A DNA stretch of 64,000 nucleotides from Caulobacteraceae bacterium (GTDB taxonomy: Bacteria > Pseudomonadota > Alphaproteobacteria > Caulobacterales > Caulobacteraceae), in NCBI GenBank assembly GCA_027487945.1, contig JAIYCQ010000043.1:1-64000 (forward strand), in the 5' to 3' direction. A program made the position numbers and the translations under genes. Below the pieces are notes generated by a model, which was given only the letters and a program-made list of their open reading frames with translations, did no database searches and was not told the origin of the DNA. Each line of letters starts with the position of its first letter. Position 1 is the stretch's first letter. This document shows positions 17,509 through 24,303 of this stretch, piece after piece.

Positions 17509-17877
17509 TTGGCCCGTATCGCAGGCGTCAACATCCCGACGAACAAGCGCGTGGTTATCGCGCTTCAGTACATCCACGGCATTGGTCCGAAATCCGCCAA
17601 GGAAATCGTCGCCAAGGTCGGCATTGAAGACGCCCGTCGCGTGAACGCGCTGACGGACGCCGAGGTGCTGCAGATCCGTGAAACGATCGACAAGGACTTC
17701 ACGGTCGAGGGCGACCTGCGTCGTGAGACCTCGGTCAACATCAAGCGTCTGATGGACCTGGCCTGCTACCGCGGCCTGCGTCACCGCAAGGGCCTCCCGG
17801 TCCGTGGTCAGCGCACGCACACGAACGCCCGCACCCGCAAGGGTCCGGCCAAGCCGATCGCCGGCAAGAAGAAGTAA
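17509..17877 (+). CDS. rpsM: 30S ribosomal protein S13, TTG start
   Basis: The 122-residue S13 begins (M)[18 protein letters not shown], exactly the family N-terminus, but the start codon is TTG. No ATG or GTG is available in frame at that point, and upstream agagagataag is a modest ribosome-binding site. The C-terminal [20 protein letters not shown] tail that touches P-site tRNA is complete. S13 forms bridges to the 50S in the head. Confidence 0.98.
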
Positions 17878-17889
17878 GAGAGAGCCTCG

Positions 17890-18279
17890 ATGGCCAAGGA
17901 ACCGGCTCGCGTCAAAAAGCGCGAACGCAAGAACATTACGTCTGGCGTGGCGCACGTGAACGCCTCGTTCAACAACACGATGATCACGATCACCGACGCC
18001 CAGGGCAATACGATCTCCTGGTCGAGCGCCGGCATGATGGGCTTCAAGGGTTCGCGCAAGTCGACCCCTTACGCCGCCCAGATGGCCGCCGAAGACGCCG
18101 GCAAGAAGGCCGCCGAGCACGGTGTGAAGACCCTCGAGGTGAACGTCTCGGGTCCGGGTTCGGGCCGTGAGTCGGCCCTGCGCGCCCTGCAGTCGGTCGG
18201 CATGACGATCACCACCATCCGTGACGTGACCCCCATTCCGCACAACGGCTGCCGGCCCCCCAAGCGCCGGCGCGTCTGA
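17890..18279 (+). CDS. rpsK: 30S ribosomal protein S11
   Basis: The 129-residue S11 shows the family blocks [41 protein letters not shown] and the final [18 protein letters not shown]. It sits on the 30S platform near the mRNA exit. No rpsD (S4) follows, so the classical S4-controlled order rpsM-rpsK-rpsD-rpoA is not present here. Confidence 0.99.
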
Positions 18280-18300
18280 GTACGTCTATTCGACCTTCCC

Positions 18301-18331
18301 TTCGCCGGCTGCGCGTTTCGCGGCCGGCGAA
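18301..18331 (+). other. Intercistronic hairpin between rpsK and rpoA
   Basis: A perfect 9-bp stem (ttcgccggc / gccggcgaa) with a 13-base loop lies in the 76-base spacer. There is no U-run. It may tune rpoA expression relative to S13 and S11 or stabilise the upstream message. Confidence 0.5.
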
Positions 18332-18355
18332 TCCGCGTTCCAAGGACATCCGCCC

Positions 18356-19372
18356 GTGATCGAAAGAAACTGGAACGAGCTCACCAAACCGGAAAAGCCG
18401 CTGATCGAAGCCGGTGTCGACGCCAGCCGCAAGGCCCGCATCGTCGCCGAGCCTCTGGAGCGCGGTTTCGGTGTGACGCTCGGCAACGCCCTTCGTCGTG
18501 TGCTCCTCTCCTCGCTGCAAGGCGCCGCCGTGACGGCGGTGCAGATTGACGGCGTGGTGCACGAGTTCTCGTCGCTCGAGGGCGTCCGCGAGGACGTCGT
18601 CGACATCGTCCTGAACATCAAGCAGCTGGCCCTGCGCCTGCACTCCGAAGGCCCCAAGCGCATGACCCTGCGCGCCAAGGGCCCCGGCGTGATCACCGCC
18701 AGCCAGATCGACGCCCCGTCGGACATCGAGATCCTCAACGGCGACCACGTGCTCTGCACGCTGGACGACGGCGCGGAAGTCCGCATGGAGTTCACGGTCA
18801 ACAACGGCAAGGGCTACGTCCCGGCCGAGAAGAACCGTCCCGAGGACGCCCCGATCGGCCTGATCGCCGTCGACGCCCTCTACAGCCCGGTCAAGCGCGT
18901 CGCCTACCGCGTCGAGCCGACCCGTCAGGGCCAGTCGCTCGACTACGACAAGCTGGTGCTGGAAATCGAAACCAACGGCGCCGTCGGCCCGGTTGACGCG
19001 GTGGCCTACGCCGCCCGCATCCTCCAGGACCAGCTGCAGATCTTCATCACCTTCGAAGAGCCCAAGGCCAAGTCCGACGGCGAGTCGAAGCCGGAGCTGC
19101 CGTTCAACCCGGCGCTGCTCAAGAAGGTCGACGAGCTGGAGCTGTCGGTCCGCTCGGCCAACTGCCTGAAGAACGACAACATCGTCTATATCGGCGACCT
19201 GATCCAGAAGACCGAGGCGGAGATGCTCCGCACCCCGAACTTCGGTCGCAAGTCGCTGAACGAGATCAAGGAAGTGCTCGCGGGCATGAACCTGCATCTC
19301 GGCATGGACGTGCCGAACTGGCCGCCCGAAAACATCGAAGATCTGGCCAAGAAGTTCGAAGACCAGATCTAG
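18356..19372 (+). CDS. rpoA: DNA-directed RNA polymerase subunit alpha, GTG start
   Basis: The 338-residue protein begins at GTG ([18 protein letters not shown]), the family start. The N-terminal assembly domain contains [22 protein letters not shown]. After a linker, the C-terminal domain carries the two helix-hairpin-helix segments ([33 protein letters not shown]) that bind UP-element DNA and activators. It scaffolds beta and beta-prime. The length is slightly above the E. coli 329 residues. Confidence 0.99.
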
Positions 19373-19532
19373 TTCGCTTCCGCGCTGTCTCCGGTCCGGC
19401 CTCTCGCAGGCGGGTCCGGGTCCGCTGACGCCGCATCCGCGGCCGAGGACCCCGGCGCTTCCGTTCTGACCCGGCAGGGAGCTGCGCCGGGATTGGTGAT
19501 GACACTGCGGGCCAAGGCCCAGGAGAGACAAA

Positions 19533-19949
19533 ATGCGTCACGGTAAGGCACACCGTAAACTGGGTCGTACGACCAGCCACCGCATCGCCATGTTCGCGAA
19601 CATGTCGGCGTCGCTGATCAAGCATGAGCAGATCGTCACCACGCTTCCCAAGGCGAAGGAACTGCGTCCCATCGTCGAGAAGCTGATCACGCTGGGCAAG
19701 CGCGGCGACCTGCACGCCCGTCGTCAGGCCATCAGCCAGGTTCGCGACATCGAGCAGGTCGGCAAGCTCTTCGCCGTGCTCGGCCCGCGCTACAAGGACC
19801 GCAACGGCGGCTACATCCGCGTCCTCAAGGCCGGCTTCCGCCACGGCGACAACGCCCCGATGGCCGTCATCGAGTTCGTCGACCGCGACGTCAGCGAAAA
19901 GGGCAAGGACTCCGGTCCGGTCCAGGAAAGCTTCGGCGGCGACGAATAG
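19533..19949 (+). CDS. rplQ: 50S ribosomal protein L17
   Basis: The 138-residue L17 begins [20 protein letters not shown], the family signature, and ends with a short acidic/Ser-rich tail. It lies near the exit tunnel. A 160-base spacer separates it from rpoA, longer than usual. A ribosome-binding site (aggagaga) precedes the ATG and a terminator follows, so it closes the cluster. Confidence 0.99.
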
Positions 19950-20233: not shown

Positions 20234-21616
20234 CTATTCGGCGAGCACGTTTGGGAAGCAAGTTCTGGCGCACAGGCCGCCTTCGGGCCTGTTGGACAGG
20301 GTGATCTCAGCGCCGTGTGACTGGGCGATCGCGCGGGCGATGCCGAGCCCAAGACCCGTACCGCCGGTGGCCTGGTTTCGCGATCCCTCTCCGCGCACGA
20401 ACGGATCGAAGATGGTCGCCAAGAGCTGAGGCGAGATGCCTGGCCCGTCATCGATGACGTCGACAAAAAGCCCGTCCCTGCTGTTCTCGGTGCGGATCAA
20501 GACGAGGCCAGAACCATATCTGCGGGCATTCTCGAGCAGGTTCTCGAACAGGCGCGTCAGCGCCAGTCGGTTGCCGGCGATTGTGAACCTGTCAGCGCTC
20601 CGGTCGATCTGAAGCGAAACCGCGTAGGGGGCGGCGTTTGACAGACCGATCACCAGATCGTTCAGCGCAATCATTTCATGACCGCTGACGGGATGCTCCG
20701 CACGGGCGTAGGCCATCATATCCGCCAGCAGATGCTCCATCTGGGCGATGTCGGGTTCGATCAGATCAGCGGTGACGGTTTCGTTCGCGTCCATGCGCAG
20801 ACGGATCTTCGTCAGGCCGGTGCGGATGTCGTGGGCGATCGCCACCATGATCTGTTCGCGCTCGCGGACCAGGCCGGCGAGCCGGGCACGCATACGGTTC
20901 AACGCCATGGAGAGACGCTGCAGCTCGCGGGGGCCGACCTCGGAAACGGCGATCGCCGTCTCGGCCAGGCCCACGATCTCGGCGTCCCGTTCGAGCGCCC
21001 GGATCGGCCGCATGATCACCCGGTAGATCGCCAGGCTGAGCAACAGGGTGACGACGACGATCCCTCCGAACAGGAAGACGAGCGGATATGGGCCCTCCGT
21101 GTAGAAGATCGAAGGCGCGAGCCAGACGCTCAGCACCCGACCATCCGACAGCGGGATCGCGATGTGCATGACGCTGGCCGCGAAATAGGGGCGCAGGCCT
21201 TCGTTCCTCAAAACCTGCCGCAGCTCGATCAGCCCCAGTGTGCGAAACCGGATGTCGCGGCCATCTAATCGACCTGCTACACTCGCCTCGTCGTCCATCA
21301 GAAGCGTTCGTCGGGCATCATCCCCTTCCATCCCTTCCGGAAATCGCGACGTGATCCGAGCCGCCCGCGATCGGCTGGCATAGGTGGAAAGCAGAGCGCT
21401 CTCGGCTTCGGGTGGAGAGCTTTCGAGCAACCAGACCAGCTCGGCGATGCCACGTCCGCTCTCGGCGATGACCCGGTCAGACACCCGATCGGACAGAGGC
21501 GTCTGCATGACGACGGCCAGGGCGGCGAATGCCACCAGCAACAGACCCAGGGTTAGGCCGACGATGCGCGCCAGGATGGAGTTCACGGCGCTGCGGGCCA
21601 ATCCTCTCACCCTCAT
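20234..21616 (-). CDS. Sensor histidine kinase, EnvZ-like
   Basis: The 460-residue kinase has TM1 (about 15-37), a 140-residue periplasmic sensor with no domain I recognise, TM2 (about 178-200), a HAMP-like linker and the catalytic core. The H-box is AIAHDIRTGLTKIRLRM with phospho-acceptor His262, the N-box is RLFENLLENARRYG, and the G-boxes are DDGPGIS and GGTGLGLGIARAI. It should phosphorylate the response regulator upstream, whose stop overlaps its start by four bases. The signal is unknown; the neighbouring EF-hand gene suggests calcium or envelope conditions, which is only an inference. Confidence 0.93.
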   Translation of the reverse strand: MRVRGLARSAVNSILARIVGLTLGLLLVAFAALAVVMQTPLSDRVSDRVIAESGRGIAELVWLLESSPPEAESALLSTYASRSRAARITSRFPEGMEGDDARRTLLMDDEASVAGRLDGRDIRFRTLGLIELRQVLRNEGLRPYFAASVMHIAIPLSDGRVLSVWLAPSIFYTEGPYPLVFLFGGIVVVTLLLSLAIYRVIMRPIRALERDAEIVGLAETAIAVSEVGPRELQRLSMALNRMRARLAGLVREREQIMVAIAHDIRTGLTKIRLRMDANETVTADLIEPDIAQMEHLLADMMAYARAEHPVSGHEMIALNDLVIGLSNAAPYAVSLQIDRSADRFTIAGNRLALTRLFENLLENARRYGSGLVLIRTENSRDGLFVDVIDDGPGISPQLLATIFDPFVRGEGSRNQATGGTGLGLGIARAIAQSHGAEITLSNRPEGGLCARTCFPNVLAE

Positions 21617-22347
21617 TCCCGAACCACCGGTACCGTCAGCGCATAGCCGAGGTTGCGAATGGTCTTGATGAGCCCTGGCTCGCGTGGGTCTCTCTCGATC
21701 TTGCGGCGGATGCGGCTGATCTGGGAATCGATGCTGCGATCGAACGGTGAGGTGGCGACCCCGCGCGAGAGGTCTAGCAGGGTTTCACGCGACAGGACAC
21801 GGGGCGCGCGTTCTACAAGGGCAAGCAGCAGCGAGAACTCGCCCGATGTCAGGACGACCTCTTTCCCGTCGAGGGATTGCAGCGCCATCCGGTCAGGCAG
21901 CAGGCGATACGGCCCGAACCGAAACGCCACACCAAGGTGTCTCGCCGCTGGAGCGGACGCGGTCCCGTCGTGTCGACGCAGAACGGCCTTGATCCGGGCG
22001 ACGAGCTCACGCGGATTGAACGGCTTGGCGAGATAGTCATCGGCGCCGATCTCCAGTCCGACGATCCGGTCGACGTCCTCGGCGATCGCGGTCAGCATGA
22101 TGACCGGGACGGCCGACGCGCTCCGCAGTCTTCGGCAGAAGGACAGCCCGTCCTCGCCCGGCATCATCAGGTCCAGAACCATGAGATCGGTCCGACCCTC
22201 GGCGAGTATGGGCTCCGCCGCGGCGACCGAGGCGGCGGTCTGTGCGCGCATTCCGCTACGTTGCAGCACGCCTTGCACGAGCGTGCGGATGTCGCCGTCG
22301 TCGTCGACGATCAGGATGGATGGCCCCTGCTCCATGCGCCCCGTCAT
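21613..22347 (-). CDS. OmpR/PhoB-family response regulator
   Basis: The 244-residue protein has a receiver domain with acidic pocket DDD (15-17), phospho-acceptor Asp59 (VLDLMMPGEDG), switch residue in MLTAIAED and the YLAKPF lysine. A winged-helix DNA-binding domain follows (LTSGEFSLLLALVERAPRVLSRE ... IDSQISRIRRKIE ... IRNLGYAL). It is co-transcribed with the histidine kinase. Paired dyads in the divergent promoter region are the likely binding sites, so it may control both itself and the EF-hand gene. Confidence 0.95.
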   Translation of the reverse strand: MTGRMEQGPSILIVDDDGDIRTLVQGVLQRSGMRAQTAASVAAAEPILAEGRTDLMVLDLMMPGEDGLSFCRRLRSASAVPVIMLTAIAEDVDRIVGLEIGADDYLAKPFNPRELVARIKAVLRRHDGTASAPAARHLGVAFRFGPYRLLPDRMALQSLDGKEVVLTSGEFSLLLALVERAPRVLSRETLLDLSRGVATSPFDRSIDSQISRIRRKIERDPREPGLIKTIRNLGYALTVPVVRE

Positions 22348-22378
22348 AGTCGTTGCCCCCGGCTCGCTCTACTGCGGT

Positions 22379-22429
22379 TTTGTGATGAAATGTGTCCGCC
22401 ACCGCCAGTCGGTGACATTTCGTCACAAA
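22379..22429. promoter_or_regulatory. Paired operator-like dyads between response regulator and EF-hand genes
   Basis: Two 15-base arms, tttgtgatgaaatgt and acatttcgtcacaaa, form an inverted repeat with one mismatch and a 21-base spacer. Each arm also contains its own short dyad: the right one is a perfect gtgac-N5-gtcac, the left one imperfect. Read on the minus strand, the right site also has two TGTSAC units 10 bases apart, the period favoured by OmpR-family regulators. It lies in the 156-base divergent intergenic region, where it can serve both promoters. Confidence 0.7.
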
Positions 22430-22503
22430 TGGCCTTCCGCCCGGCAAACGTGGGCAACGCGACCGGGTCAATCTCCTCGCATTCCAACCGAGGAGACCAA
22501 CCG

Positions 22504-22929
22504 ATGATCAGGCTTTCGACTTCCACCTTGATCCCCTTCCTGACCGCCGTTGCCGCGACCAGCCTGCTCATGGCCAGCCCGGCTCTCGCGCAGTCAGGCG
22601 GGCAGATGGCCACCATGCTGGACCGCGCCGACCGCAATGCGGACGGTCGGGTGACATGGGGCGAGTTCACGCGTGCTCGCAGTGACATGTTCGACGAACT
22701 GGACCGTAACGACGATGGCAATGTCGATCGGGCCGACCGGCCGAGCATCATAGGCGACCGGTTTGACCAGGCCTACCGCGCCTTGTCGTCCCTGGACGCC
22801 AATGGCGATCGCCGTGTCTCGCGCACGGAACTCCGCGATGGTCCCGCCGACGCCTTCGACGCCGCGGACACCAACGGCGACCGCGTGCTGACCGCGGACG
22901 AACTCGCGACCCTTCGCCCCTCGCGCTGA
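22504..22929 (+). CDS. Exported four-EF-hand calcium-binding protein
   Basis: The 141-residue protein has a signal peptide (about 1-30, ending SPALAQ) and four 12-residue EF-hand loops at 43-54, 67-78, 98-109 and 122-133. Loops 1 and 2 are near canonical (DRNADGRVTWGE, DRNDDGNVDRAD). Loops 3 and 4 have Arg at the usual glycine position and may bind more weakly. It is presumably periplasmic and buffers or senses calcium. The start is chosen by the gaggag site and signal peptide; the track ORF begins far upstream in error. It is divergent from the two-component genes and followed by the hydroxylase gene. Confidence 0.9.
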   Translation: MIRLSTSTLIPFLTAVAATSLLMASPALAQSGGQMATMLDRADRNADGRVTWGEFTRARSDMFDELDRNDDGNVDRADRPSIIGDRFDQAYRALSSLDANGDRRVSRTELRDGPADAFDAADTNGDRVLTADELATLRPSR

Positions 22930-22969: not shown

Positions 22970-24051
<1,082 letters not shown>

Positions 24052-24140
24052 TAGGAGTCAGATCCGGGCCTAGAAGACGGGTGGTCTAAATGTCCGCTCA
24101 GGGTCGATAGCGGACTGAGACATCTCCCGTTTCCGTTTCT

Positions 24141-24208
24141 CCGGCAAAGGCCGGGTTCCATGCGGGTCAAGGGCTCGGAGCGGGATCATGGATCCCGGCC
24201 TTTGCCGG
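24141..24208. repeat. Palindromic intergenic repeat with 22-bp arms
   Basis: Arms ccggcaaaggccgggttccatg (24141-24162) and its near-perfect reverse complement (24187-24208, one mismatch) enclose 24 bases. It belongs to the same CCGGC-GCCGGG family as the repeat in the spc operon. It is the only recognisable content of the 494-base gap 23810-24303, which otherwise has no supportable gene. Confidence 0.8.
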
Positions 24209-24303
24209 GAAGACGGGACAGGGTCAGATCGGCGTCAACTTCACCCGTTGGCGTGGAGCCAGACAGCTGACCCCTGGATGTGCGCCAGGGGAGGAGACCG
24301 GCG

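Follow-up and report, generated by a model that had tools for sequence, protein, structure and literature searches.

What does a pair of facing inverted arms do in the divergent promoter between a two-component operon and the gene for a small EF-hand protein? The question arises from the window (the whole stretch of DNA analysed here, 64 kb from a Caulobacteraceae bacterium), in which an OmpR-family response regulator gene and an EnvZ-like kinase gene are transcribed away from the EF-hand gene (Table 1). An earlier note on this DNA had described paired arms, each containing its own dyad, and had taken them for a response-regulator binding array controlling both divergent genes. Our analysis suggests that the arms most likely provide two out of three places at which the regulator docks, and we consider it probable that they are OmpR-type operator sites of the adjacent regulator, serving autoregulation and activation of the divergent gene.

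Table 1. Features of the divergent locus, in window coordinates
Feature	Position	Strand	Remarks
EnvZ-like sensor histidine kinase	20234-21616	-	overlaps regulator by 4 bases
OmpR-family response regulator (receiver + winged helix)	21613-22347	-	domains, orthologues, structure comparison
Possible regulator -10, TATGAC	22343-22348	-	position comparable in orthologues
Inverted pair of 15-base arms	22379-22429	.	21-base spacer; 0/2000 shuffles
Site B (left arm core)	22381-22396	+	matches the pattern; paired with a second site in most orthologue loci
Site A (right arm core)	22412-22427	-	half-sites TGTGAC, TGTCAC, 10-bp period
Element C, GGCAAA-N4-GGCAAC	22443-22458	+	conserved without gaps even where the divergent genes are unrelated
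Small EF-hand protein, signal-peptide-like N-terminus	22504-22929	+	divergent gene, putative target
Fatty acid hydroxylase family protein	22970-23809	+	40 bases downstream of EF-hand gene

The arms and the repeat within them

The arms, TTTGTGATGAAATGT (22379-22393) and ACATTTCGTCACAAA (22415-22429), were found exactly where the earlier note had placed them, with one mismatch in 15 bases and the spacer it gave, and they can be extended to 20 bases with 17/20 matching. The pair is not a chance occurrence: dinucleotide shuffling of the 156-base divergent intergenic region yielded no comparable 15-base inverted pair in 2000 trials. About five independent inverted pairs as good as this one occur in the whole window. 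A long GC-rich inverted repeat with arms of more than 20 bases also lies at 24140-24209, between genes near 23.8 and 24.3 kb, and is perhaps a terminator or a small repeat element.

The internal structure of the arms is better described as a direct repeat than as a dyad. The two proposed dyad centres do lie 30 bases apart, and the right-hand dyad, GTGAC-N5-GTCAC (22412-22426), is perfect, but to give each arm a dyad of its own was an overstatement, because the left one (GTGAT-N5-GTGTC, 22382-22396) matches at only two of five pairs. The 10-base period of TGTSAC units that had been noticed alongside the dyads is real and is the more meaningful description. Read in this way, the arms are TGTGAC-GAAA-TGTCAC and TGTGAT-GAAA-TGTGTC, both 10-base direct repeats, with site A starting 31 bp from site B and with the half-sites of B (TGTGAT, 22381-22386; TGTGTC, 22391-22396) having their outer end toward the regulator operon. 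GTNAC reads the same on both strands, so a dyad will appear wherever it is repeated directly. At the third base, 30 of 34 sites had the same letter 10 bp further on and 15 had its complement in the dyad register, while the leading T was kept in 16 in the direct register versus 8 in the dyad register; we therefore rejected the dyad as the binding unit. Judged by its sequence, the conserved unit of each arm is a 10-bp direct repeat, TGTNRC-N4-TGTNRC, a site of the OmpR type: two direct-repeat half-sites with a 10-bp period, like GTTACA-N4-GTTACA, are present, and the conserved 6-4-6 inverted repeat of palindromic CopR/AgrR-type boxes is not. The site consensus is about TTGTNACG-NN-TTGTNRCG, as written after inspection of some of the loci, which are related to one another.

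The regulator has the domains of the OmpR/PhoB family (Pfam Response_reg, 2e-29; Trans_reg_C, 1.7e-20) and is not OmpR itself, scoring 246.8 bits against the NCBIfam OmpR equivalog (cut-off 331) and 125.2 bits against the heavy-metal CopR/CzcR subfamily. Among solved structures, the DNA-binding domain of E. coli OmpR comes nearest to its own, and the two share RSID-QISR-RR. The kinase, a HATPase_c protein in the same operon whose adjacency to the regulator is kept in related loci, scores 178.9 bits against the EnvZ equivalog (cut-off 415). The regulator probably starts at 22335, 12 bases inside the listed open reading frame; its best orthologue (L004, 74%) starts at the equivalent codon, and the distance from site B to this start, 45 bases, is 43-46 in most other loci. 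The -10-like TATGAC directly before that start hints at a nearly leaderless mRNA. On the other side, the fatty acid hydroxylase gene is possibly co-transcribed with the EF-hand gene. The regulator/kinase/EF-hand locus (20234-22929) adjoins the ribosomal genes rpsM-rpsK-rpoA-rplQ (17509-19949).

Conservation with the regulator

The regulator system is patchily distributed. At E<=1e-67 no other genome of the genus (74 genomes) had it, and at E<=1e-75 it occurred in 3 of 390 genomes of the family, with further orthologues scattered across the order and class; that the locus is unique among 75 genus genomes suggests gain by transfer or widespread loss. The earlier note had named a lack of conservation in relatives as grounds for abandoning its reading. 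Conservation was found: of 19 loci that encode a close relative of the regulator, 17 had an inverted site pair scoring above shuffles (p<0.05) just upstream of it, the convergent arrangement was the top-scoring of four orientations, and the spacing was 28-32 bp, about three helical turns, in 16/19 (in L133 the automatic register chose a neighbouring pair). A pair score of at least 16 was reached in 16 of these 19 loci versus 1 of 27 loci of OmpR paralogues (L006-L032), which served as the negative control. L004 shows a single clear site, and L132, with insertion-sequence-like DNA upstream, has no pair. In the latter (L132:1-1500), transposase-like sequence lies directly upstream of the orthologous regulator, and both the site pair and the divergent gene have been lost. 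Eighty further loci, with identity of at most 55%, behave as paralogues; the strict site pair occurred in none of them, and an EF-hand motif upstream in three (L039, L108, L112).

Gap-free alignment of the loci on site A brought out a third element, C, a direct repeat with a 10-bp period that begins on the divergent side, 31 bases away from where A begins. Its 16 columns hold an information of 9.74 against a maximum of 5.27 in a randomised-register null, and 13.68 against 11.02 when one locus per divergent-gene family is used; in the five loci from other orders alone the best conserved window lies elsewhere and the support is weaker. Element C has a fixed spacing from A, and the -10 of the EF-hand gene is weak in the window. 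From position and conservation, C is a probable weaker site in tandem with A, near the -35 of the EF-hand promoter. For the proposed response-regulator array, conservation alongside the orthologous regulator is strong support, but its unit is a direct repeat and its third element lies outside the segment originally described.

The same control module faces different divergent envelope genes in different loci. In the window, in L004 and in L116-L119 this gene encodes an EF-hand protein; L113, L114 and L005 have a DUF6491 lipoprotein there, and L135, L136 and L138 an LTXXQ (Spy/CpxP-like) protein, to which the L137 protein looks similar. Other small exported-looking proteins are encoded in L115, L133 and L134, and L139 and L132 have other DNA upstream. 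The kinase aligns over nearly its full length, including the sensor, in loci of the same order, and mainly in its C-terminal part in L133-L139. We tentatively raise the idea, which we hold at somewhat below even chances, that the three sites with the regulator and kinase form a portable cassette in the class, in which spacing is kept and the divergent envelope gene is exchanged. A single circuit that senses envelope stress or ions might use the exchanged small proteins as alternative partners for feedback. If so, partner exchange behind one module would illustrate how two-component systems recruit new small envelope proteins.

The regulator's reach within the genome looks local. A regulon of further sites had been expected, and the scan did not bear this out: in a pattern scan of its own genome, fewer than two mismatches were seen only at the two window sites (0 mismatches each), and there were two hits with 2 mismatches, no more than control matches. 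The sites therefore look dedicated to their own locus. A profile model, which had little power, recovered only site A in the genome (E=0.6). A two-mismatch version of the site, TTTGTAACGAAACGTCAG, lies upstream of a GTP-type phosphoenolpyruvate carboxykinase-like gene (L142:1500-1520; G000:C5:168430) and is not above the control count.

Proposed control and its alternatives

The operator reading rests on the sequence, its conservation, the spacing and orientation of the sites and the lack of other good sites in the genome. Each site presents two head-to-tail half-sites with a 10-bp period, which would fit one tandem regulator dimer; the sites being inverted, B would point to the regulator operon and A to the EF-hand gene. 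In our proposal, tandem dimers of the phosphorylated regulator would occupy A and B, and through B the regulator would control its own operon (autoregulation), while A and C would recruit RNA polymerase to the EF-hand/hydroxylase genes and so activate them. We infer that the cognate regulator binds here, that C is also a site for it, that both divergent genes are under its control and that its effect on the divergent gene is activation. The proposal amounts to a control map that can be tested, for a two-component system as yet uncharacterised and not described in any paper that our literature searches turned up; it also connects a small EF-hand protein with this system. A single promoter reporter could serve to look for the signal (calcium, metal or envelope stress).

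Operators placed between divergent promoters are able to repress in both directions, and the regulator could mainly be a repressor, repressing itself and silencing the EF-hand gene, with C as a repressor site or simply the core promoter, at whose expected position it sits. We think this unlikely: a direct repeat of 10-bp period around -35 that lacks a good -35 hexamer, as element C would be, is typical of OmpR/PhoB-type activators. Another regulator might use the sites, either a paralogous OmpR or a different winged-helix protein: on the same contig lies a second OmpR-like gene, with 53% identity, whose product might also recognise this motif, and motifs are shared within the family. Such a reading is improbable, given that the pair accompanies this rare regulator from one order to another and is absent upstream of 26 of the 27 paralogues.

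We regard as quite improbable the reading of GTGAC-N5-GTCAC as a palindromic box of the CopR/AgrR type, with one symmetric dimer site per arm. The perfect right arm would suit it, and AgrR binds a 6-4-6 inverted repeat (PMC7380067), but the poor left dyad and the third-base comparison speak against it, as does a regulator far closer to OmpR than to CopR/CzcR. Arms of 15 bases with a 21-base loop could also fold into a hairpin in RNA or DNA, as an attenuator, terminator or riboswitch, which is very improbable indeed: the region is situated between divergent starts, and arms from the same locus are hardly more alike than arms from different loci (12.8/22 versus 11.4/22), so that pairing is not maintained. 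Lacking co-variation between loci, and with no Rfam match, the RNA hairpin was rejected.

Relation to known systems

With the arms read as OmpR-type operators, the locus is a control switch of an ordinary bacterial type. Distant relatives conserve it, the twist being its changing partner gene. AgrR, CopR and CzcR of Cupriavidus and Pseudomonas are likewise OmpR-family regulators at divergent promoters, where such regulators activate themselves (PMC7380067), but the core of their boxes is a 6-4-6 inverted repeat and not a direct repeat. UzcRS of Caulobacter crescentus is also an alphaproteobacterial two-component system that controls exported and membrane proteins; UzcR differs in having the motif CATTAC-N6-TTAA and a broad regulon (PMC8963506).

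A close match is EnvZ/OmpR of E. coli. Its sites, too, are two tandem 10-bp half-sites (GTNACA-N4-GTNACA), and the motif here is the published OmpR motif GTTACAnnnnGTTACA (PMC7315122) on the opposite strand. The regulator is closest to OmpR by both DNA-binding domain and NCBIfam model, and the kinase to EnvZ. Unlike in E. coli, both proteins fall under their equivalog cut-offs, the half-sites are often TGTGAC or TGTTGC, the sites converge within a divergent promoter, and control is apparently local.

In layout, the locus recalls CpxRA/CpxP, a self-controlling two-component system beside a small envelope protein. The sites here do not appear to follow the published CpxR motif. Here too, a regulator-kinase operon diverges from a gene for a small exported protein, which in several orthologous loci is an LTXXQ (Spy/CpxP) protein, whereas in the window it is an EF-hand protein.
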